This document shows positions 5,710 to 35,458 of a stretch of DNA of 37,082 nucleotides, piece after piece. Below the pieces are notes generated by a model. The model saw nothing but the letters and a program-made list of their open reading frames with translations, ran no database searches and was not told where the DNA came from. Origin of the DNA: an uncultured Pelagibacteraceae bacterium (GTDB lineage: Bacteria; Pseudomonadota; Alphaproteobacteria; Pelagibacterales; Pelagibacteraceae). The stretch lies in NCBI GenBank assembly GCA_902588855.1, contig CACIQS010000001.1:1-37082 (forward strand), written 5' to 3'. The stretch's first letter is position 1. Every line of letters begins with the position of its first letter. Both the position numbers and the translations under genes were made by a program.

Positions 5710-7200
5710 ATGAATAATCCTAAATTTATTGCTAGTTTTTTTAAAAAATTCAGTAAATTTATTAATAATCTATTAGAGAAAAATTTAAACAAGTTAAATG
5801 TTCATAATTTTAAAAATTTATTAATTAATAATAAAATATTTTTATCTATTGTCGCACTAATTATTTTAATTTTATCATATATTTCATTCCCAAATATTCA
5901 CAATAAAGACGAAGTAGCTTTAGAAATTAAAAAAAATTTAAAAAATAAATTAAACCTAGAGTTTAATTTTAAAGAAGACTTAGATTATAAATTTTTGCCA
6001 AGACCTCATTTTGCTACGAGTAACTCTTCAATTAATTTTAAAAAAGATAAAATTACAGAAATAAAAAAACTCAAAGTTTATGTCTCTCTGAAAAATTTGT
6101 TTTCTTTAAAAAATATCAAATTAAATCATGTCATTTTGGAAGAAGCAAATTTTAATTTAAACAAAGAAAATTATAATTTTTTGTTTAATTTATTAGATAG
6201 TAATTTTAATGATTTCAAATTTGAAATATTAAAAAGTAATGTTTTTTATAGAAGTTTAGAAAATGAAGTTTTATTTATTAACAATATTAATAACGCAAAA
6301 TATTATTTCGATCCTAAAGAAATTAAAAATATCCTTGATGCAAATAATGAGATTTTTAATTTACCTTATTCAATTAAAATTTTTGATGATAAAATTGAAA
6401 AAGCAATACATTCTAAAATAAATATAGAAAGTTTAAGACTCAAAATAGATAATCAAACTTCATATACTGACACAAATTATTTGGGTTTTTCAGAAATAAA
6501 TTTAATAAACACAAAAAGTTTATTTGATTATCAAATAAAAAATGATTTGTTTGAGTTTAAATTTTTTGAAAAATTACAAAATCCAGAGTTTTCTTATACA
6601 GGGAAAATTAATTTTAAACCTTTTTACTCAAATATTACAGGTAAAACAAATAAACTAAATCTTGCGCCTTTATTTTCGTCAAATGCAATTATAAAAGAGC
6701 TTTTAAAAACTGAAATTTTAAATAATAAAAATATTGATTTTAATTTAATAGTTGCTGGAAATAATATTAAAGAATTTGATGATTTTAAAAATGTTTTATT
6801 TAAATCTAAAATTCAAGAGGGTTTAGTTGATATTGATCAGTCAAAAGTAACTTGGAAAAACAATATTGATTTTGAGTTTTTAGATAGCTTAATATTTGTA
6901 AAAGAAGGAAAATTAGTTTTAGATTCAAATGTTGAAATAAGTATTAATAATTCAAATGAACTTTATATGTTTTTGCTTACACCAAAAAATTTTAGAAAAA
7001 AAATTAGCAAAGTTAATATTGGCTTTACTTATTTATTTGATGAAAAAAATATCAAAGTTAAAAACATCATGATAGACGAAAAAATACTTGAAAAGTCTAA
7101 ATATACTTTTGATGATATTTTACTTAAAGAAAATAAATTACAAAATAAAATTTATTTCAAAAATTTATTGAATGAATTAATTAAAAATTATGCAGGATAA
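5710..7200 (+). CDS. AsmA-like / hypothetical membrane-anchored protein
   Basis: Long ORF with one N-terminal TM segment ([18 protein letters not shown]) and a low-complexity beta-rich body resembling AsmA-type proteins. Family call is tentative. Confidence 0.6.
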
Positions 7201-14712: not shown

Positions 14713-14742
14713 TTGACATAATTAATTTAGAATGATTATAAT
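14713..14742 (+). promoter_or_regulatory. Consensus sigma70 promoter for the dctP-led operon
   Basis: Exact TTGACA (14713-14718), 18-nt spacer, exact TATAAT (14737-14742). Predicted start near 14749. Confidence 0.75.
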
Positions 14743-14770
14743 ATGGAATGGATGATTTACTTTCTCTCTT

Positions 14771-14850
14771 CAAGTCTGGTTGTGCTGACTTGTAAATCAA
14801 GGGACAACACCAAGTCTGGTTGTGCTGACTTGTAAATCAAGGGACAACAT
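14771..14850 (+). repeat. Two abutting 40-bp direct repeats in the predicted dctP 5' UTR
   Basis: CAAGTCTGGTTGTGCTGACTTGTAAATCAAGGGACAACA(C/T) at 14771-14810 and 14811-14850, differing only at the last base. Confidence 0.97.
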
Positions 14851-14871
14851 TAAATTAACACAGGAGAAAAA

Positions 14872-15834
14872 ATGAAAAAAATACTAGTAATACTTTTAAG
14901 TGTACTTTTTTCTTTTCAAGTAGCAAATGCCAAAATAATACTTAAGGCTGGTCATACTGCGAACCCAGATGAACCTTATCACAAAGGCATGCTTGAATTG
15001 AAAAGATTAGTTGAAGCAGCAACTAATGGAGAGGTAGAAATTCAAATATTTCCTAATGGACAACTTGGTTCAGAAAAAGAAATGATTGAAGGACTGAAAT
15101 TGGGTACTGTAGATATAACAAGTCCATCTAATGGTAATTTAACTAACTTTGTTCCTGAATTAGGAATATTTGATTTACCATTTTTGTTCAGAGATAGACC
15201 CCATATGTATAAAGCTATGGATGGTGGACCTGGTCAAAAATTATCAAAAGCTATGGCTGATAAAGGTTTCCGTTTATTAGGTTTTTATGAGGCGGGTATA
15301 AGACATATCATGACTACAAAAAAACCAATTAATAGTTTTGACGATATCCAAGGTTTAAAAATAAGAACCATGGGTGTTCCAGCTCACGTAGCATCTTTTA
15401 ATGCTTTTGGAGCAAAAGCAACACCAATGGCTTATGGAGAATTATATGGAGCTTTACAACAAAACGTAGTTGATGGGGCAGAAGCTGCAAACACAAACTA
15501 CAATTCTAAAAAGTTCTATGAGGTTGCACCTAATTGGGCTCAAATTGGTTGGACAGCTTTGGTTGCAGATTTAGTAATGTCTGAGAAGAAATTTAAATCT
15601 TTACCAGCTAATGTTCAAAAAGCTTTATTAGATGCCGGTCCAAAAGCTGCGGCTGTTGAAAGAAAAGCATATTCGGACAGTGATAATTCTTTATTAGATA
15701 GTTTAAAAGCTAAAGGAGTTAAAGTTACTTATCCTGATCCAATACCTTTTAGAAATGCATCTAAAGCTGTATATGATGAATTTGTAAAAAGCACATCATC
15801 AAAAGCTATCTTAGATGAAATCTTAGGCATGTAG
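14872..15834 (+). CDS. dctP: TRAP transporter substrate-binding protein, DctP family
   Basis: Signal peptide MKKILVILLSVLFSFQVANA; DctP motifs FPNGQLGSEKEMIEGLKLGTVDI, IQGLKIRTMGVP, YGALQQNVVDGAE. SD ACAGGAG. Confidence 0.95.
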   Translation: MKKILVILLSVLFSFQVANAKIILKAGHTANPDEPYHKGMLELKRLVEAATNGEVEIQIFPNGQLGSEKEMIEGLKLGTVDITSPSNGNLTNFVPELGIFDLPFLFRDRPHMYKAMDGGPGQKLSKAMADKGFRLLGFYEAGIRHIMTTKKPINSFDDIQGLKIRTMGVPAHVASFNAFGAKATPMAYGELYGALQQNVVDGAEAANTNYNSKKFYEVAPNWAQIGWTALVADLVMSEKKFKSLPANVQKALLDAGPKAAAVERKAYSDSDNSLLDSLKAKGVKVTYPDPIPFRNASKAVYDEFVKSTSSKAILDEILGM

Positions 15835-15861
15835 TTTAAATAAAAAATTATGATATTATTA

Positions 15862-15889
15862 ATGGGCGCTTAAAGCGCCCATTTTTTTT
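15862..15889 (+). terminator. Intrinsic terminator/attenuator between dctP and dctQ
   Basis: Perfect palindrome ATGGGCGCTTAAAGCGCCCAT (15862-15882) followed by a T run to 15889, next to the ATG at 15890. Confidence 0.88.
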
Positions 15890-16357
15890 ATGAATATATT
15901 AAATAAATTTAGAACCGTTATTAACTGGTTAGTAATTTTGTTCTTTTGTTACATGGTACTTGCTGTTTTTTATCAAGTGCTAGGAAGATATGTGTTTCAT
16001 TATAAGCTTGGAATAGCAGCTGAGACAGCAACTTTTGCTCAAATCTGGATGGTTTTATTAGCTGCTGGAATTGCAATGAAAAAAAATATGCATGTAGGTG
16101 TAGACATTTTACTTAGAGTGCTTCCTAAAAAATTTCAAAAGATTATTATTGTTTTTAGTTTTATTTTTATTCTTTCTTTTTTATTGCTTGCACTAAAAGG
16201 ATGTTTTGCCCTTATATCGGTCGGTTTTGAATCAACATCACCTGCGCTAGGTATACCTATGTGGATACCATATTTGTCAGTACCAATTGGTATTATTTAT
16301 ATAACTTTAGAATTAGTAATCGTTACAATTTCTAAATACAAAGAGAGAAATAGTTAA
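15890..16357 (+). CDS. dctQ: TRAP transporter small permease, DctQ family
   Basis: Four TM segments; ETATFAQIWMVLLAAGIAMKKNMHVGVDIL typical of DctQ; lies between dctP and dctM. Confidence 0.92.
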   Translation: MNILNKFRTVINWLVILFFCYMVLAVFYQVLGRYVFHYKLGIAAETATFAQIWMVLLAAGIAMKKNMHVGVDILLRVLPKKFQKIIIVFSFIFILSFLLLALKGCFALISVGFESTSPALGIPMWIPYLSVPIGIIYITLELVIVTISKYKERNS

Positions 16358-17640
16358 TGGCTCTAATATTTGTATTATTTTTATTTTTACTAGTTTTTGG
16401 AACCCCAATTGTTTTTTCTTTAGGTATTGCCGCGAGTTTTACATTACTTTCTTATGATGTTCCAATGTCTCTTGTTGCACAAAGAATGTATGGAGGTTTA
16501 GATAAATTTACAATTATGGCAATTCCATTTTTTATTTTAACAGGAATAATTATGGAAAGAGGTGGAATAGCAAAAAGAATAATTGATTTTGCTACTGCTT
16601 TAGTTGGTTGGATAACAGGCTCCTTATATTTGGTTGCTGTAGTTGCGGGAACTGGTCTTGCAGCAATTTCAGGTTCTGGATCTGCAGATACGGCTGCAAT
16701 GTCCTCAATAATGTTGCCTCAAATGAAAAAAAGAAAATACAATATTGATTTTTCTGCAGCAATAATGGCTGCAAGTGGATCTTTAGGTACTATCATACCT
16801 CCAAGTATAATGATGGTAGTACTTGCAACAATATCTAACCAGTCTGTCGGAGCACTTTTTTTAGCAGGAATTATTCCTGGCTTGATGTGTGCAGCATTTT
16901 TATTAATTAGTGGGTATGCCAGAGCAAAATTGAACAAATCTGAAGCACAAGATATTACAAATTTTAGTTTTATTTTTTTAGTCAAATCTTTTGTTAAAGC
17001 TATACCAGCTTTAACCCTACCAGTAATTATCGTAGGAGGAATTATTGGAGGAATATTTACACCTACTGAAGCTGCATCAGTTTCAGTAATTGTTGGATTA
17101 ATAATTTCAATTTTTATTTACAAAGAAATAAAATTCAAAGATTTACCGGAAATAATTCTTAGAGCTGCAACTATAGCATCTACAGTTATGTTAATTATTG
17201 CTACAGCAAGTATTTTTTCTTGGTTTATTGCAAGTCAACAGATACCTCAAAAAATCTCTGAATTCATGTTAGGTTTTTCCGATAGTAAACTTTTATTTTT
17301 AATCAATGTAAATTTATTACTGATTTTGATTGGTATGTTTATGGAAAGTATATCTGCGATATTAATCTTAGTGCCAGTATTAATGCCTGTAGCAATTGCA
17401 TTTGGTGTTGACCCATTACATTTTGGATTGATAATTATATTAAATTTATCTATTGGAATGATAACACCTCCATACGGGATAACTCTTTTTGTTGCGAGTT
17501 CAATTGCAGAAAGATCAATTATAGATGTTTCAAAAAAATTATTTTTACCACTTACCTTGATGTTTTTAGTCTTAATTTTGGCAACTTATTTTCCACAAAT
17601 TTCCTTATATTTACCTAGTACTATAATGGGGTATAAATAA
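16357..17640 (+). CDS. dctM: TRAP transporter large permease, DctM family
   Basis: ISGSGSADTAAMSSIMLPQM, GSLGTIIPPSIMMV, GGIFTPTEAASVSVIVG, ITPPYGITLF. Start overlaps the dctQ stop (TAATG). Confidence 0.96.
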   Translation: MALIFVLFLFLLVFGTPIVFSLGIAASFTLLSYDVPMSLVAQRMYGGLDKFTIMAIPFFILTGIIMERGGIAKRIIDFATALVGWITGSLYLVAVVAGTGLAAISGSGSADTAAMSSIMLPQMKKRKYNIDFSAAIMAASGSLGTIIPPSIMMVVLATISNQSVGALFLAGIIPGLMCAAFLLISGYARAKLNKSEAQDITNFSFIFLVKSFVKAIPALTLPVIIVGGIIGGIFTPTEAASVSVIVGLIISIFIYKEIKFKDLPEIILRAATIASTVMLIIATASIFSWFIASQQIPQKISEFMLGFSDSKLLFLINVNLLLILIGMFMESISAILILVPVLMPVAIAFGVDPLHFGLIIILNLSIGMITPPYGITLFVASSIAERSIIDVSKKLFLPLTLMFLVLILATYFPQISLYLPSTIMGYK

Positions 17641-17642
17641 TT

Positions 17643-18524
17643 ATGTTTAAAGGTTCTTACTCAGTTACAATCACACCAACATTTGGTGATGGAAAAATAA
17701 AAGTTAAATCCTTAGAAAAATATTTTAATTGGCAAATTAAAAAAAAAATTGGAGGTTTAATTATTCTTGGTAGCACAGGAGAGTTTTTATCAATTTCAGA
17801 TCAAAATCGTTTAAAAATGATAAATGAATCTGTTTCCATCATAGATAATAGAGTTCCTTTATTAGTTGGTACAGCAGCAGAAAACACTTATGATGCAATT
17901 AGGTATTCTGTTGAGGCACAAGCTCAAAATGCAGACGGAGTAATGATCATTCCCCCATTTTATTCAACACCCACCCCTGAAGAATTAATAAATCATTTTA
18001 AAATGATTAGTAAAGAAATTGATATTCCAATAATGGTTTACAATAATCCTGCAACTTCAAATATAGATATTACACCAGATATTTTTGCTGAATTGTCAAA
18101 AATTAAAAATGTTAAATACTGTAAAGAGTCCACGATGGATGTAACTAGAGTTAAAGAAATAGACAAACAATCTAAAGGAAAAATAAAAGTTTTTGGTGGG
18201 ATAATGGGTTACGAATCTTATTTGAATGGAGCTATAGGATGGGTATCCGTACCATCAAATATTGTACCTCAAGATTGCACAAATATTTATGAAAATATTA
18301 AAATTAAGAAAAATTTTGAAAATGCTAAAAAAATCTATGATAAAATTACCCCAGTAATAAAATTAGTGGGTAAACATTTTTATGTCGCTGCAACAAAATA
18401 TATGCTCAATTTAATGGGGTTTGATGTTGGAAAACCTCTTTTACCACGACTTGATTTATCAGAGTCAAAGAAAAGAGAATGCAGAAAAGTTTTTAAAGAA
18501 TTAAATTTTAAGAAGATAATTTAA
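17643..18524 (+). CDS. DapA/DHDPS-superfamily lyase (candidate 1-pyrroline-4-hydroxy-2-carboxylate deaminase or related aldolase)
   Basis: GSTGEFLSIS, YNNPATSNIDI, YCKESTMDVTRV with Schiff-base Lys. Specific function inferred from neighbours. Confidence 0.85.
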   Translation: MFKGSYSVTITPTFGDGKIKVKSLEKYFNWQIKKKIGGLIILGSTGEFLSISDQNRLKMINESVSIIDNRVPLLVGTAAENTYDAIRYSVEAQAQNADGVMIIPPFYSTPTPEELINHFKMISKEIDIPIMVYNNPATSNIDITPDIFAELSKIKNVKYCKESTMDVTRVKEIDKQSKGKIKVFGGIMGYESYLNGAIGWVSVPSNIVPQDCTNIYENIKIKKNFENAKKIYDKITPVIKLVGKHFYVAATKYMLNLMGFDVGKPLLPRLDLSESKKRECRKVFKELNFKKII

Positions 18525-18527
18525 ATT

Positions 18528-21443
18528 GTGTCTGTGATTATAAATGAAGATAATTTTCAGATTAAATCTAAAAAAGTAAGTTTTTTTTTCGAAAATAAAG
18601 AACTTCAAGCATATGAGGGTGAAACAATTTCTTCAGCATTAATAAGAAATGGTTACTATAACTTTAGAATAGACAAAGATGGCAAAGATAGAGGTGTTTA
18701 TTGCAACATGGGGGTTTGCAATGAATGTATCTTAACAGTTAATGGAAAACCAAGTATTAAATCATGTTCCACAAAAATAGTAAATAATGATAAAATTTTC
18801 AGACAAAATTACCAAGCCCCTATACCAAAAATTAAAGAGGAAATTCAATTAAAAAAAGAAATTCAAGAGACAGAAATTTTGTTAATTGGTTTAGGACCTT
18901 CTGGAATGGGTTTTTTAAATTCAATAAAAAATACAAATCAAAAAATAATTATTATTGATGAAAAAGATTCTTTTGGTGGGCAGTATTATAAAAAAATAAG
19001 CAGTATCTTTAATTTATCAAACACGGATAAGCTTGATTATCAGCAAAAAGAAGGTTTGGATTTAGAACAAAAAATAAAATCTAAAAACTTTGAGTATATT
19101 TTAGAAACTAAAGTTTGGGGAATATTTCAAAAAGATGAAAATCTTTATGAAGTTTGTTGTTCTAAAAACAATAGAGACATTAGAATTTTAACTAAAAAAA
19201 TAATTGTAGCTACTGGCTCATATGAAAAACCATACTTTGTTGAAGGATGGAATTTGCCGAATGTATTAACAACAGGTGGTGCTCAAATAATGTCTAAAAC
19301 ACAAGGATTATTTTTAGGGAAAGATGTAGTTATTTGTGGAAATGGACCATTAAATTTTCAATTAGCCTTAGAGTTAATGAAAAATAATATTAATGTTAAA
19401 GCGATTGTAGAGACATCTAGCAAACCTTTTTTTAAAATTTTCTCTTCTTTTTTTTGTCTATTATCATCGCCAAAAATTTTTTTACAAGGAATTCTCATTT
19501 ATCTAAAAATTTTATTTTCAAAAGTAAAAATTTATCATGAAAGCGCTTTAGTAAAGATTGAAAATGAAAAAGATAAAAAAAAAATATTAATTAAAAATTT
19601 TAAAAATAATAATTCATTTTCTATCAATAATATTGATGCTGTAAGTTTAAACTATGGATTTAACCCTAACAATGATATCGGTAAAATTTTAGGATTAGAT
19701 GGTTCATTTAATAAACAAAAAAATTTCTTTGAAATAAAAAAAAATTTATTCAACGAAACAAGTAAAAGAAACATTTTTTTTCTTGGTGAGGCAGCAAAAA
19801 ATTCTGGTGCAAAAATATCTTTATACGAAGGAGAATTGACTGGTTTTTATTTAAATAAAAAAAAAAAATTATTTAATTATTTTAAATTTGCATTTTCATT
19901 ATTTAATTTATTTAGATCAATGATATTCCAGTTTTTCTTATGGAAAATTTTTGATAAAAATATTTCAAATTCTGATTTTATCACTGATGAAACATTATTT
20001 TGTAGATGTGAAAATATAAAATTTAATGAAATAAATAAATTAAAAGATCAAAAGAATATTGATGCAGGATTAATAAAAAGAATAACTAGAACTGGTATGG
20101 GTAGGTGCCAAGGTAGATATTGTGGATATGGTTTAAGTGAAGTTTTTAAAGATAAGATAACTGACTCAAATTATAAGCAATATTCTTTTGCACCTCAAAA
20201 TCCAATTCAAACAGTAGAAATAAAAAATACAGGTCATGAAAAAGAAGAGTGGTATGGTTATGTTCAAGACAAGCTACCAAAGTTTAATATTAAACAAAAT
20301 ATATCTAAAAATAAAGTTAAACACAAAATTGCAATTATTGGTGGTGGAATAATGGGTGTCTCAACTGCTTATAATATTCTTAAACACGAAAAAAATATTT
20401 GTTTGATTGATAGATTACAACCTAATTCTCAGGCCTCAGGCTCTAACGCAGGATCACTTCATGTTCAGCTTTTATCTTATGATTTTGATCCAAATAACTT
20501 AACTCAGTTAGACAATATGAAAACTTTACTGAAACTTCAAAAGAAGGCTGTTTCAGAATGGAAAGATATTGAAGAGGAAACTAAATCAAATTTTGAAATA
20601 TCTTACGATGGTGGACTAATGTTTGCGGAAAATGAAAAAGATTTGGAAAAACTCAACATGAAAATAGAGGTTGAACAATCTGTTGGAGTTAACTCTCAAC
20701 TTATTAATCAAGATCAAATTCATAAAATTAATCCACTTTTCTCCGACAAAATGATTTATGCTGGTTATTGTCCATCTGAAGGTAAAATAAATCCCTTAAA
20801 GGCAACGAATAGTATATTTGAAAAATGTAAAGAAAATGGATTAAATGATTATTGTGATGACCTGATTCAAGCAATTGAAAAAAAATCAGGAAAATTCAAA
20901 ATTATTACCGATAATCATGAAATTGAAGTTGATAAAATTGTTAATTGTGCAGGATCTTGGGCTAATAATATTGCAAGTTTTTTAGAATTACCCCTCAAAG
21001 TAAAAAGTGTCCCTCAACAGATGATAGTAACTGAAGCTCTAGAGTATAAACTTAAATTATTAGTCGCTCATATTGGAAGACACTTGACTCTGAAGCAGGC
21101 TACAAATGGTAATTTTATAATTGGCGGGGGTTGGACAGCAAATTATTCAAAAAATACTGATCATTTACATGCACTAAAAGATAGTTTTGAAGGGAATACT
21201 TGGGTTGCTAAAAGAGTAATCCCAAGTTTATCTAATGTTAATATTTTGAGATCTTGGGCAGCTATGAGTGTTGATGTTGGTGGCTATCCTTTGATGGGAG
21301 AGCACCCATTAATGAAAGATTTTTATACACTTGTTTCTTCAAATGGATATACCCTTGGTCCAACTTTAGGTAAAATTTTATCTCAACAAATTATTTATGA
21401 TAAAATTGAATATGATCTTTTTGATAAAAGTAGACTAGATTAG
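18528..21443 (+). CDS. Three-module fusion flavoprotein: 2Fe-2S ferredoxin-like, NAD(P)/FAD oxidoreductase with BFD-like [2Fe-2S] site, and DAO-family FAD oxidoreductase (HcnABC / D-hydroxyproline dehydrogenase-like)
   Basis: GTG start. N-terminal CNMGVCNECILTVNG...C; LLIGLGPSGMGFLNS and FGGQYYKK; FCRCEN...RCQGRYCG; second Rossmann KHKIAIIGGGIMGVSTAYN near aa 600 with DAO features (ASGSNAGSLHVQ, VNCAGSWAN). Confidence 0.87.
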   Translation: MSVIINEDNFQIKSKKVSFFFENKELQAYEGETISSALIRNGYYNFRIDKDGKDRGVYCNMGVCNECILTVNGKPSIKSCSTKIVNNDKIFRQNYQAPIPKIKEEIQLKKEIQETEILLIGLGPSGMGFLNSIKNTNQKIIIIDEKDSFGGQYYKKISSIFNLSNTDKLDYQQKEGLDLEQKIKSKNFEYILETKVWGIFQKDENLYEVCCSKNNRDIRILTKKIIVATGSYEKPYFVEGWNLPNVLTTGGAQIMSKTQGLFLGKDVVICGNGPLNFQLALELMKNNINVKAIVETSSKPFFKIFSSFFCLLSSPKIFLQGILIYLKILFSKVKIYHESALVKIENEKDKKKILIKNFKNNNSFSINNIDAVSLNYGFNPNNDIGKILGLDGSFNKQKNFFEIKKNLFNETSKRNIFFLGEAAKNSGAKISLYEGELTGFYLNKKKKLFNYFKFAFSLFNLFRSMIFQFFLWKIFDKNISNSDFITDETLFCRCENIKFNEINKLKDQKNIDAGLIKRITRTGMGRCQGRYCGYGLSEVFKDKITDSNYKQYSFAPQNPIQTVEIKNTGHEKEEWYGYVQDKLPKFNIKQNISKNKVKHKIAIIGGGIMGVSTAYNILKHEKNICLIDRLQPNSQASGSNAGSLHVQLLSYDFDPNNLTQLDNMKTLLKLQKKAVSEWKDIEEETKSNFEISYDGGLMFAENEKDLEKLNMKIEVEQSVGVNSQLINQDQIHKINPLFSDKMIYAGYCPSEGKINPLKATNSIFEKCKENGLNDYCDDLIQAIEKKSGKFKIITDNHEIEVDKIVNCAGSWANNIASFLELPLKVKSVPQQMIVTEALEYKLKLLVAHIGRHLTLKQATNGNFIIGGGWTANYSKNTDHLHALKDSFEGNTWVAKRVIPSLSNVNILRSWAAMSVDVGGYPLMGEHPLMKDFYTLVSSNGYTLGPTLGKILSQQIIYDKIEYDLFDKSRLD

Positions 21444-21448
21444 TTTAA

Positions 21449-22324
21449 ATGAGTTTATCGAAAAAATTGTTCTTAATTTCAATTTCAATTTTTTCATATT
21501 TCTTATTTGTTCTAATGGACTCTATAGCAAAATACTTATCAGAATACATTAATACATCTCAAATTGTATGGGGTAGATATTTTTTTCATATGGTGCTTTT
21601 GGTTATAATTTATTTTTTTATGTCAAAAAAAATAAATTTAACAAAAAATTTTTCAATTCAAATTGCTAGATCTTTATGTCTTGTCTCTACAACTTTTATG
21701 ACTTACTTAGCAGTAAAATATAATGATCTTATTAACTTTTATATAATATTTTTTTCAACACCTTTATTTGTATCCATATTTTCTTATTTTTTTTTAAAGG
21801 AAAAGCTAAGCAAATTTTCGATATTGTTAATTATTTTAAGCTTTATAACAATTATATTTGCTTTACAGCCCAATAAATCTTTTTTAACAATATATATTTT
21901 TCTTCCATTGTTTACTTCAATATTTTTTGCTCTCTATCAATTGTTTACTAAAATAGTTTCAAAAGACAAAGAACCTTTTGTTGCTTTATTTTACACTGGT
22001 ATATTAGGAACAATTATTTTTAGTTTTATAGTATTTTTTAATTGGCAATCAATTAATAATATAAATGTCTGGCTTATATTATTTTTTCTTGGACTTATTG
22101 GATATCTTTCTCATTTTATATTTGCCTATGTTTTACAATCTCTTGATTTATCATTCATTACAAACTTTCAATATTCTCAATTAGTATGGGCCTCATTAAT
22201 AAATGTTTATTTTTTCAACGATCCTATAAATTCATCAAAAATAGTCGGTATAATTTTAATAATTTTATTTGGAGTACTTTTTATTCAAAATCAAATTAAA
22301 AATCAAAATTTTTTAATAAAGTAA
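21449..22324 (+). CDS. EamA/DMT-superfamily permease
   Basis: About 10 hydrophobic segments; DSIAKYLSEYINTSQIVWGRYFFH pattern of EamA proteins. Confidence 0.85.
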   Translation: MSLSKKLFLISISIFSYFLFVLMDSIAKYLSEYINTSQIVWGRYFFHMVLLVIIYFFMSKKINLTKNFSIQIARSLCLVSTTFMTYLAVKYNDLINFYIIFFSTPLFVSIFSYFFLKEKLSKFSILLIILSFITIIFALQPNKSFLTIYIFLPLFTSIFFALYQLFTKIVSKDKEPFVALFYTGILGTIIFSFIVFFNWQSINNINVWLILFFLGLIGYLSHFIFAYVLQSLDLSFITNFQYSQLVWASLINVYFFNDPINSSKIVGIILIILFGVLFIQNQIKNQNFLIK

Positions 22325-22398
22325 TTAAATTAGGGTTCTCAAAAAAAGAAATAGAATATATGATTAAAATTAACTCAAAAAGATTATTTAATCTCTAA
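22322..22398 (+). pseudogene. Apparent C-terminal relic of an amidohydrolase gene
   Basis: A different frame from the EamA ORF reads FNKVIKLGFSKKEIEYMIKINSKRLFNL*, matching the usual C-terminal end of amidohydrolases (LGLSxEExxxIxxxNAxRLFxL). Stop forms TAATG with the next ORF. No upstream body of the gene remains. Confidence 0.5.
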
Positions 22399-23534
22399 TG
22401 AAACAAAAAATAGAAACAGAATTATTAAATATTTTAAAAGAAATTGTAAAAATCGATACATGCTATCCTCCCGGGAGTAGTAAGAAATTTTCAGAATATG
22501 TAAGAAAATACCTTAAAAATTCTGGCTTAAAAGTGAAATCATTTGGTGTTAATCAAAATAAACCAAATATTGTTGTCTCTAATAAATTTAATTCATCGAA
22601 ATCTTTAGTTTTTAATTCACATATAGACACAGTAAGGCCAATTGTAAGTGAATGGAAAACTAATCCATTTAATTTAAAAATAGATAAAAAATATTCTTAT
22701 GGCTTAGGTGCAGTAAATTGCAAAGGTAGTGCTGCTGTTCATCTATATTTGGCAAAAAATTTAAATAAATTATTTCCAAAATTAAAAAGTAAAATAGATT
22801 TTACTTTTGTAACAGATGAAGAAAATTTGGGACCAGATGGAACAAGATACTTGAGAAAAATTAAAAAAATTAAACCACATACTTTAATTCTTGGTGCGCC
22901 AACAAATAATGATTTTGTTATTGAAGAAAGAGGAGTATTTTGGATTGAGGTAGAGGTGTTTGGAAAAACTTCACATGCTGGGGAACCGCAAAAAGGAATA
23001 AACTCTATTGAGAAATCTTCAAAAATAATTAACCGATTAAATACCGATTACAAAAAAAAGTTGAAGAAATATAATGTTGGTGTGCACAAATCTACCATCA
23101 ACATTGGGATGATCGATGGTGGAGAAAATGTAAATGTTGTTCCATACAAAACTAAGATTGTAATTGATAGAAGAATTACTCACAAAGAAAATATTAAAAA
23201 ATCATTCAATGAAATTAAAACTTACATTAAAAAAATTGATAAAAATGTAAAAATTAAATTTTTAACAGGAACAAATCCTTTCAAATCAAATAAATCTAAT
23301 TTTTATTTAGCAGAACTTTCAAAATCAAAAAAATTAATTACAGGTAAAAATGCAAAATTTTTATCATCAATAGGTGTGAGTGATGGTAGATATTTTGCAG
23401 ACGATAGGGTCAATATAATTAACATTGGACCTGGAACAGGATCTGAAGGTCATAAGTCCAATGAAAAATTAATTAATAAAGATTTAATTGATTATTTTTT
23501 AATACTCCAAGATTTTTTATTGAAAATTAATTAA
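22398..23534 (+). CDS. M20-family (ArgE/DapE/CPG2-like) protein with altered metal ligands
   Basis: FNSHIDTV, YGLGAVNCKGSAA, TDEENLGPDGTR, LGAPTNN, GKTSHAGEPQKG, GHKSNEKL. Confidence 0.87.
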   Translation: MKQKIETELLNILKEIVKIDTCYPPGSSKKFSEYVRKYLKNSGLKVKSFGVNQNKPNIVVSNKFNSSKSLVFNSHIDTVRPIVSEWKTNPFNLKIDKKYSYGLGAVNCKGSAAVHLYLAKNLNKLFPKLKSKIDFTFVTDEENLGPDGTRYLRKIKKIKPHTLILGAPTNNDFVIEERGVFWIEVEVFGKTSHAGEPQKGINSIEKSSKIINRLNTDYKKKLKKYNVGVHKSTINIGMIDGGENVNVVPYKTKIVIDRRITHKENIKKSFNEIKTYIKKIDKNVKIKFLTGTNPFKSNKSNFYLAELSKSKKLITGKNAKFLSSIGVSDGRYFADDRVNIINIGPGTGSEGHKSNEKLINKDLIDYFLILQDFLLKIN

Positions 23535-32001: not shown

Positions 32002-32871
32002 ATGAAATATGTAATTTTAGTACCAGTTTATAATGACCGTGAATCTTTAAAGTTACTAATTGAAAATATTAATAATGAGATAAAAGGTTTAAATTCAGAA
32101 ATATCATTAGTGATAATTAATGATGCCTCTTCACAACAAATTATTGATGAATACTCAAATACTGAAAACATTCACTCAATTGAAATAATAAATATGAAAG
32201 AAAACAGAGGTCATGCAAGATGTATTGCTTCTGGTTTGAAATATATTTATGAAAAAAAGGAGTTCGATTATGTAATTCCGATGGATGGCGATGGCGAAGA
32301 TAGACCAGAAGAAATTAAAAACTTTGTTGAATTGTCAAAGGAAGCTGGAAACAGATCTATAATTGGTGAAAGGGTTAAAAGATCAGAAAATATGATCTTT
32401 AAATTATGTTACCAATTTCACAAATTTTTAACTTTTGCTTTTACTGGGCAATCTATAAAATTTGGTAATTTTACATGTCTTTCAAAAGCAACTATTAAAA
32501 AATTGTTAGAAGAAAAAGCTACTTGGAATAGTTTTTCGGGATCCTTAAAAAAAATAGAAAAAGATTTAATTTTTTCTCCATCAATTAGGGGCAAAAGGTA
32601 TTTTGGTCCATCTCAAATGAGTTTCTTTAAATTATTAAAACACTCATTATCAATAATAAGTGTATTTAGAAAAACAGTATTAATTCGTTCAGCTTTATTT
32701 ATTGTTTTTTATATCTTGTTAATTAAAAATAATGCGTCAATCGTTACATCATTGCCTTTAGTTTTGTTATTAATAATGATTTATTCAATTTCTAGTTTAG
32801 CTTTAAGAGAAAATATTGAAGAATTTAATAATTCCTTAACAAATATCCACGATATTGATAAAATAAAATAA
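32002..32871 (+). CDS. GT2-family glycosyltransferase with C-terminal TM helices
   Basis: ILVPVYNDRESLKLLI, VIINDASS, YVIPMDGDGEDRPEEI; hydrophobic C-terminus. Confidence 0.9.
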   Translation: MKYVILVPVYNDRESLKLLIENINNEIKGLNSEISLVIINDASSQQIIDEYSNTENIHSIEIINMKENRGHARCIASGLKYIYEKKEFDYVIPMDGDGEDRPEEIKNFVELSKEAGNRSIIGERVKRSENMIFKLCYQFHKFLTFAFTGQSIKFGNFTCLSKATIKKLLEEKATWNSFSGSLKKIEKDLIFSPSIRGKRYFGPSQMSFFKLLKHSLSIISVFRKTVLIRSALFIVFYILLIKNNASIVTSLPLVLLLIMIYSISSLALRENIEEFNNSLTNIHDIDKIK

Positions 32872-32873
32872 GT

Positions 32874-34310
32874 ATGAAAAACTTTTTTAGAAAAGTTGCT
32901 TTTGGCATAGGGCCAAATGAAGAAGTTCCTTCTGATCCACTTAACTGGGCATTAAATCAAATTGATCAAATTCCTGAATTTTCATGGAAGGGAAAAATTC
33001 TTACAGAAAAAGAATTGAGAGGTCATTATAGAGATTGGGTTTACGGTGATAGAAAAGTTTTAAGAAAAAAATATAAAGATAATAAAAATCTTTACAAAGT
33101 TCATAAAGATCAATTAAGACATGAGACAGGACAAAAATTCTGGGAGTCGTTAGAGATATCTATTAGACATAATGAGGCAATAAATAGTAATAACCCAGTC
33201 CTCGCAAAACTATGGATGTTCTGGGGAAACTTTTTTGCAATCAGTGAAAAAGATTTTTTAGCTAATTATTCTACAGGTGCTTATCAAAGAGAAATAATCT
33301 GGCCAAATTTAAACCAGTCGTTTGAAAAAATGGTTTATGATGTAACTACATCATGGGCAATGATTCATCATTTAGATAACAGCGAAAGTGCAGGTCCAAA
33401 AAGTGCTACCGCTAGTGAAGATTGGAGAAGAAAAAAGAAGGAACCTGCTACAATAAATGAAAACCATGCAAGAGAACTTATGGAGCTTCATACAATTTCT
33501 CCTAAAGCAGGCTATACCCAAGAGGACGTGATTCAATTGGCCTATATAATGACTGGTTGGCAACACAGATGGAGTAAAAAAAATTTAGAAACAGGCAACA
33601 TCTGGTTTAATTCTGAATATCATCAAATAGGGAAAAAGAATGTTTTAGGCAAAGAATATAAAAAGGGAAAAAAAGCTTTAGCGGTTGTAATTAAAGATTT
33701 AGTTAACCACCCTAATTGTAGAGACTTTGTAGCTGAAAGACTTTGTAGATATTTAATTACTGATGATCCAACTCAAGAGATGAAGCAACCAATTATTGAT
33801 GCATTTCAAAAATCAGATGGTCATATACCAGAAATTCATAAGGCAGCTATAAAAGTTGCTTTCGAATACAATGATAAATATAAAAAATTTCAGACACCAG
33901 AAAATTGGTTTATTCAAGTTGCAAAAATTTCAGATTTAAATTGGCCACCCTCACCAGATTTAATGGATAAATACGAACTTGGTCAAAAACCGTTGGATTC
34001 ACAACGTAAGCCTCAGCGGTTATTAGAAAATATTGGCCATCATCCTTATAGAGCAAAACAGCCAAATGGTTGGTCGGATCATTCCGATGATTGGATTTCA
34101 CCAGAATTACTAATCAGAAGACTAGTTTATGCAAAAGCAAGCTTTAATTTTAATAAAATGGAAAATACCAAAAAAGCAGAATATTATGAAAAAATAGTTG
34201 AAAAAAACTTCAACAACCCAAGTAAAATTATGAAATATTTAAATCAGAAAAGCAGATCTGTTGCAAAACATACTTTACTTTTTAATCACCCGGAGTTTTT
34301 AAAAGCATGA
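32874..34310 (+). CDS. DUF1800 family protein
   Basis: ENHARELMELHTISPKAGYTQEDVIQLAYIMTGW, SPELLIRRLVYA; followed by a DUF1501 gene. Confidence 0.88.
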   Translation: MKNFFRKVAFGIGPNEEVPSDPLNWALNQIDQIPEFSWKGKILTEKELRGHYRDWVYGDRKVLRKKYKDNKNLYKVHKDQLRHETGQKFWESLEISIRHNEAINSNNPVLAKLWMFWGNFFAISEKDFLANYSTGAYQREIIWPNLNQSFEKMVYDVTTSWAMIHHLDNSESAGPKSATASEDWRRKKKEPATINENHARELMELHTISPKAGYTQEDVIQLAYIMTGWQHRWSKKNLETGNIWFNSEYHQIGKKNVLGKEYKKGKKALAVVIKDLVNHPNCRDFVAERLCRYLITDDPTQEMKQPIIDAFQKSDGHIPEIHKAAIKVAFEYNDKYKKFQTPENWFIQVAKISDLNWPPSPDLMDKYELGQKPLDSQRKPQRLLENIGHHPYRAKQPNGWSDHSDDWISPELLIRRLVYAKASFNFNKMENTKKAEYYEKIVEKNFNNPSKIMKYLNQKSRSVAKHTLLFNHPEFLKA

Positions 34311-35458
34311 AGATATCAAGAAGAGATTTTTTAAAAACTACTGCTCTAACTTCATTATATTTTGCTGGTTTTGGAGGAATAAGTAATGCAAATGCAGGAA
34401 CAAAGAAGAATTTAGTAATAATTATGTTACGAGGTGGAATGGATGGCTTATGTGCTATTCCAGTTAAAGGTGACAAAAATTTTGAAAAATTAAGAAGCAA
34501 AATTAACCTCGATAGAACTTTAAAATTAACTTCTGATTTTGATTTACACCCTGCATTAAAAACATTTAAAAGTCTTTGGGATGAAAATTTAAGTGCCGCA
34601 GTGCATGCAACAAATATTCCATACACAGGTAGGTCACATTTTGATGGTCAAAATTTAATGGAGTCTGGAGGAAAAATTCCTTACCAAGAAAAAACAGGTT
34701 GGCTTGGAAGAGGAATGAAGACAGCAGGACTAACAGGAAAAGGATTAGCTTTAGCTTTACCTATGCCTTTATTAATTAGAGGTGTTCCAATGAACAACAA
34801 CTACTTTCCTGTAGGTCGTTATCTGCCATATCCTAATACTTTAGAAATAATTAAAAGTGCATATGAAGAATATGATGAAAAATTGTTAAGCGAAAATTTA
34901 GAAATAATTTTAACAAGAGATTTTAATAATAGATCAAGTGATGATGCTTGGATTTTAGCCTCAAGTGCTGGAACTGAGTTGTCAAAACCAGATGGACCTA
35001 AAGTTGCAGTTTTTGAAGTAGATGGCTTTGATACGCATGCTGCACAAGGTGCAACTGATGGTGCGCATGCAGACTGCTTATCAGATTATGATAACATTAT
35101 TAGATCTTTAAAATCATCAATGTCAAAAGAAGCATTTGATAATACTTTAGTTTTAACTCTAACAGAATTTGGAAGAACAATTAAACAGAACAGTAGTAAT
35201 GGAACTGAACATGGTTATGGTTCGGCTATTTTAATGGCCGGGGGATTACTTAAAAAAGCACAAGTTCATACAGACTGGCCAGGATTAAAGAAAAAAGAAT
35301 TATTCGAAGGAAGAGATTTAAATTCAACTATTGATGCAAGATCTGTCTATGCATCTGCAATGTCTAAAGTCTTTGATGTCGAATTTGAGAGAATTCAAAA
35401 AGACGTTTTTTGGGGTGATAAATTAAACAACTTATCCGATAAACTTTTTAAAGCCTAA
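34307..35458 (+). CDS. DUF1501 family protein with Tat signal peptide
   Basis: Twin-arginine leader MKISRRDFLKTTALTSLYFAGFGGISNANA; LRGGMDGLCAIPV, FEVDGFDTHAAQ, LTLTEFGRTIKQNSSNGTEHGYGSAILMAGG. Confidence 0.93.
   Translation: MKISRRDFLKTTALTSLYFAGFGGISNANAGTKKNLVIIMLRGGMDGLCAIPVKGDKNFEKLRSKINLDRTLKLTSDFDLHPALKTFKSLWDENLSAAVHATNIPYTGRSHFDGQNLMESGGKIPYQEKTGWLGRGMKTAGLTGKGLALALPMPLLIRGVPMNNNYFPVGRYLPYPNTLEIIKSAYEEYDEKLLSENLEIILTRDFNNRSSDDAWILASSAGTELSKPDGPKVAVFEVDGFDTHAAQGATDGAHADCLSDYDNIIRSLKSSMSKEAFDNTLVLTLTEFGRTIKQNSSNGTEHGYGSAILMAGGLLKKAQVHTDWPGLKKKELFEGRDLNSTIDARSVYASAMSKVFDVEFERIQKDVFWGDKLNNLSDKLFKA

Follow-up and report, generated by a model that had tools for sequence, protein, structure and literature searches.

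Leaders of the preQ1-I type are very small H-type pseudoknots, with a P1 stem of 5-6 bp, a short P2 and an A-rich loop L3. The element described here is alike in its small H-type leader form, in the size of P1 and P2 and in its A-rich L3, but it has other loops and no queuosine genes downstream, and the 3' strand of its P2 is not itself a Shine-Dalgarno (SD) sequence beside the start codon. SAM-II and SAM-V, the latter found in Pelagibacter, are likewise H-type pseudoknots; compared with both as outlined in PMC6061858 and PMC11508383, the element is shorter and lacks methionine genes, and the tandem that we report consists of two identical copies rather than of two classes. Meyer et al. (2009) listed leader RNAs of the same clade, namely the Pelagibacter candidates rpsB, rpsL, ffh and SAM-V, and four weaker motifs that include a bulged hairpin, serial stems and a three-stem junction (PMC2704228); going by the brief descriptions there, none is the pseudoknot of the element. 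The STAXI motif (RF01728; Weinberg et al., 2010), in the summary given of it, shares tandemly repeated pseudoknots with our locus, but is enterobacterial, has UUCG loops and lies near DNA-handling genes (PMC2864571). Searching Rfam 15 at the gathering score with our locus and four others gave no match, which sets the element apart from preQ1-I, SAM-II, SAM-V and STAXI alike, and the best sub-threshold matches of a permissive search were unrelated; the first-pass annotation, which recognised no family here and called for this comparison, thus proved right. In the main texts of the open-licence literature we also found no description of the element. Based on the sequence comparisons below, the element is best read as belonging to a new class of cis-regulatory pseudoknots, which may plausibly be riboswitches.

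The stretch of DNA analyzed, referred to as the window, is 37,082 nt long and derives from an uncultured Pelagibacteraceae bacterium; the leader and operon features listed next lie on its forward strand. As annotated earlier, the leader of dctP contains two adjoining 40-bp copies of the element (39/40 identical, the sole difference being the final base, C or T) between a strong promoter and the gene, and this tandem is the best repeat of the window (TRF score of 158 vs at most 54 for the other rows). The promoter (14713-14742) consists of TTGACA at 14713-14718, an 18-nt spacer and TATAAT at 14737-14742, has the top sigma-70-like score in an upstream scan of all loci, and predicts a transcript start at about 14749. 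Copy 1 occupies 14771-14810, with a 39-nt core (14771-14809) that matches the covariance model at 68 bits. Its P1 pairs CAAGTC (14771-14776) with GACTTG (14787-14792), its P2 pairs GTTGT (14779-14783) with ACAAC (14804-14808), and its loop L3, TAAATCAAGGG (14793-14803), is conserved and A-rich and ends in an SD-like AAGGG. Copy 2 (14811-14850, core 14811-14849) also matches the model, and forms P1 from 14811-14816 and 14827-14832 and P2 from 14819-14823 and 14844-14848. It is followed by the SD of dctP, AGGAG (14862-14866), and the start codon ATG at 14872. The TRAP solute-binding protein gene dctP (14872-15834; PF03480 / NF037995) is the first of a presumed regulated operon, the remainder of which (15890-23534) encodes DctQ, DctM, a DHDPS-family lyase, a fused dehydrogenase, an EamA exporter and an M20 peptidase. 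The dehydrogenase (971 aa) is a 2Fe-2S/pyridine-nucleotide/DAO fusion of the hydroxyproline or opine type.

The tandem arrangement had been taken as part of the design, a view not upheld by the orthologous dctP leader of locus L052, which has a single copy; among all collected loci, two full copies are found in the window only. A recent duplication is the best account of the tandem, which is functionally interesting but lies outside the definition of the family. L052 was recovered through the element search rather than by protein search, in which the only close dctP relative at E<=1e-60 among 397 family genomes was the window's own. A weak DNA match in genome G190 (L007) was rejected as a further copy, as it covers the SD/start region only.

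When the 40-mer was searched across SAR11 genomes, as had been suggested, the same element turned up in other Pelagibacter genomes before different genes. A pattern allowing three mismatches detected it in 8/397 family genomes, and a reversed-pattern control gave no match. A covariance model, likewise called for earlier and built with P1 only, was run over 399 Pelagibacter genomes and left a clear gap between real copies (50-68 bits) and all other sequences, none of which exceeded about 25 bits. Carriers number about 24 of these 399 genomes, many of which are incomplete, with 1-3 copies each. All 26 matches of a pattern scan of 85,462 species fell in Pelagibacteraceae, and scans of further genera and of a second family within the order recovered no copies; in these searches the 39-nt element is confined to the genus Pelagibacter. 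Viral contigs gave no match to the strict pattern, and one relaxed-pattern match, inside a methylase gene, was dismissed as chance. The genus scan, the order scan and the species-wide pattern scan together yielded 48 distinct contexts and 23 distinct element sequences. The distribution is patchy, the element travels with the gene, and identical copies are present in different genomes.

A start codon on the same strand follows 47 of the 48 copies at a distance of about 5-40 nt, the one longer distance being the 62 nt from copy 1 of the window to its ATG. The exception, at L068 6023-6061, has no gene after it and looks decayed; one G-C pair of its P2 has become G-U, and its L3 is altered (AAGAG). 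Where recognizable promoters are present, they usually end 5-18 nt before the element, which would make it the 5'-terminal part of the mRNA. The genes that follow belong to at least eight unrelated families, and between loci with unrelated genes the element is 91.6% identical while the flanks on its two sides are 38.5% and 37.1% identical (488 pairs). The downstream genes encode members of a large secreted family that is presumably serine-hydrolase-like (the name rests on an SxxK-like motif), DUF1800 followed by DUF1501 (the latter named by eye from its sequence), a polysaccharide lyase, DctP, an amino-acid-type ABC binding protein, a trypsin-like lipoprotein and unknown proteins. The earlier proposal of a leader cis-element is supported by this conservation and by the fixed position and strand before the start codons of several gene families, while its assignment to control of the TRAP operon was too narrow: dctP is one target among these families.

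At the same chromosomal junctions, in the GT2 and IMPDH/PRTase neighborhoods, different genes follow the element. Together with the identical copies across genomes, this would suit a mobile repeat or a recombination site on gene cassettes of a hypervariable region, a reading that we nevertheless consider very improbable, as the element has a fixed orientation before start codons, only 1-3 copies per genome and no partner copy at the 3' end of the cargo, no integron integrase scored over the cut-off, and both stems show compensatory changes. The integron attC site was rejected specifically: TIGR02249 was over the cut-off in 0/15 carrier genomes, and the attC core order is RYYYAAC...GTTRRRY, whereas in the element GTT precedes AAC. 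The element also shows how a probable regulatory RNA can spread over genes of unrelated kinds in a variable part of the genome.

The pairings annotated in each unit, CAAGTC (1-6) with GACTTG (17-22) and GTTGT (9-13) with ACAAC (34-38), are present, and covariation or compatible changes in both stems support the H-type pseudoknot that they would form. In the alignment, which leans to P1 since the model was built on P1 and does not contain P2, the explicit pseudoknot is paired in 99.2% of cells, compared with 90.7% for shuffles and 28-54% for slid partners. P1 is paired in 98.5% of cells and covaries at 1:22 (A-U, C-G, U-G, U-A and G-U) and at 6:17 (C-G in 16 and G-C in 7 sequences). P2 is paired in 100% of cells, without a broken pair; L070 combines U11A with A36U, a compensatory change of pair 11:36 from U-A to A-U, and two G-C to G-U changes occur in L071 and L068. 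Conservation is very high, such that a two-sided change is seen in only 3 of the 11 pairs, the P2 double change coming from one genome, and relatives of genome G717 contained no further P2 variants. Nearly every base of the element is fixed, including the loops U7-G8, G14-C15-U16 and the A-rich U23-AAA..AAGGG33, and an H-type knot can reasonably accommodate loop lengths of 2/3/11. Single-sequence folding energy is ordinary (z about -0.5) and nested energies are unremarkable, as expected for a marginal knot; because a nested-only folding program is blind to a pseudoknot, the support is comparative rather than thermodynamic. A competing hairpin of CTTG (19-22) with CAAG (28-31), suggested earlier as a possible switch, can be drawn in the window but is not conserved across the family, in that columns 22:28 pair in only 11 of 22 sequences, with no excess over shuffles.

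The two supported helices are interleaved, which speaks for a pseudoknot in RNA and not for a palindrome in DNA. If the element were a double-stranded DNA operator bound by a transcription factor, the many copies lying 5-18 nt after a -10-like box would fit, and P1 alone might be a palindrome, but we regard an operator as extremely improbable given inverted repeats that are interleaved instead of nested, the fixed orientation, and the operon-internal copies. The latter, which lack a convincing leader promoter, include elements whose first base lies 1-4 nt beyond the stop codon of a preceding glycosyltransferase gene (L048, L050, L063 and L069) and elements at the end of DUF1501 inside the operon (L066, L077, L097 and L100); in all eight loci the distance from the preceding stop codon is no more than about 4 nt. 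In L077 and L100, one copy precedes DUF1800 and another precedes the next gene, the contig of L100 beginning at the DUF1800 copy. Genes for a glycosyltransferase 2, DUF1800 and DUF1501 (by position) are also found in the window at 32002-35458, a junction at which other genomes carry the element. In the window, 2 nt separate the glycosyltransferase stop codon from the start of DUF1800 and there is no element, which provides a natural negative control; similarly, DUF1501 and the hydrolase gene overlap at TAATG in L158 without an element. This comparison of junctions with and without the element favors control of single cistrons, i.e., of translation, over a transcription-factor operator, and argues for an element that would act on translation rather than as a DNA operator. 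Such natural pairs of one gene junction are ready-made tests.

Further hints come from the ribosome-binding region. In 13 leaders the gap to the ATG is at most 12 nt with no SD in the scan, although 12 leaders is the safer count, since the scan took an upstream ATG for L059, whose true gap is 17 nt. With so short a gap and no SD, the region occupied by the initiating ribosome would extend into the folded knot, including the AAGGG of L3. A separate SD outside the knot is present in many other leaders, often those with longer gaps and including that of the window. We found no terminator and no invariant anti-SD pairing as an expression platform in the leaders. Some serine-hydrolase and lyase leaders (L047, L049, L056, L066, L077 and L100) contain a near-palindromic hairpin, AAAAGTTAACTTTTAAAAG, between the element and the ATG, and their P1 is AAAGTC/GACTTT. 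In U22-type elements this hairpin could pair with the 3' strand of P1 and so compete with P1 formation, which offers one idea of an expression platform.

The short-gap leaders lacking another SD, the AAGGG within the element, and the independent start that insertion between coupled genes would require could also reflect a constitutive module, in which the knot at the 5' end, without any sensing, keeps the mRNA from being degraded or serves as a ribosome-binding site in its own right. We consider this quite unlikely: in the short-gap leaders AAGGG lies 12-18 nt from the ATG, outside the usual spacing, the invariant loops exceed the needs of a stabilizer, and the operon-internal copies are away from transcript 5' ends. 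The same invariance, extending to nearly all bases and the loops, would be explained if the pseudoknot were the site of a trans-acting protein, or of a small RNA pairing with the loop UGGUUGUGCU, and if this factor governed how mRNAs for uptake and secreted enzymes are translated or how stable they are. The many unrelated targets do resemble a regulon, and AGGGA in the element is similar to the ANGGA motif, but none of 15 carrier genomes encodes CsrA, the best-known ANGGA binder; with only a minority of Pelagibacter genomes carrying the element, a dedicated regulator would need to belong to the core genome or be inherited along with it; and a non-systematic look beside the loci revealed no regulator; this account is therefore possible but unlikely. 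A CsrA/RsmA target leader as such was rejected, with PF02599 in 0/15 carrier genomes and the controls detected.

We believe it just probable that the element represents an undescribed Pelagibacter family of H-type pseudoknot leader RNAs, most likely acting as a metabolite-responsive translational switch. A response to a ligand is favored because the element moves between unrelated genes and only a minority of genomes have it, as would be in keeping with a sensor that is self-contained. In such a switch, P1 (1-6/17-22) and P2 (9-13/34-38) would interlock, and the conserved loops would fill the junction and the groove of P1, where the pocket of a small aptamer would sit. The folded pseudoknot would hide its own AAGGGA and block 30S loading on the start codon downstream, and the unfolded or unliganded RNA would be translated, or the polarity may be the reverse. 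The comparisons establish the family, its specificity, its orientation and position and the pseudoknot pairing; the RNA-level action on translation (on indirect grounds), the ligand sensing and the polarity are what we infer from the sequences. With two copies in series, as in the window, the dctPQM uptake operon would respond more sharply. More tentatively, and with somewhat less than even confidence, we propose a new riboswitch class among the smallest pseudoknot aptamers, which would couple an organic-nutrient signal to translation of SAR11 uptake systems and secreted hydrolases, having been inserted cistron by cistron, sometimes twice per operon and in tandem before dctP. SAR11 cells are very abundant and have few transcription regulators, so an RNA-level layer over uptake and polymer-degrading genes would bear on their response to organic matter, and a 39-nt knot with near-invariant loops is of a size that suits direct structural work.

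Across the family, the downstream genes suggest no obvious single common metabolite. Two unrelated transporter types carry the element, the TRAP dctP (window and L052) and an ABC transporter (L064), and genome G508 has it before both (L052 and L064). The L064 locus also encodes a DHDPS-family enzyme, separate dehydrogenase subunits, an EamA-type exporter and an M20 peptidase, which is the gene set of the window operon except that the dehydrogenase is fused in the window. Non-homologous ABC and TRAP transporters are thus joined to the same gene set in L064 (1335-11126) and the window (14872-23534). This common set is a hint to the signal; since the other targets of the element are without this pathway, what is sensed may be nutritional in a broader sense.

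Two further observations concern the downstream genes. The P2-compensated copy of L070 is followed by a short open-ended ORF (6107-6451) without a Pfam match. The secreted protein encoded at L047 (5109-6413), for which we found no Pfam family and no solved relative by sequence, belongs with its homologs to a large and divergent Pelagibacter family, often present as several paralogs in a row.
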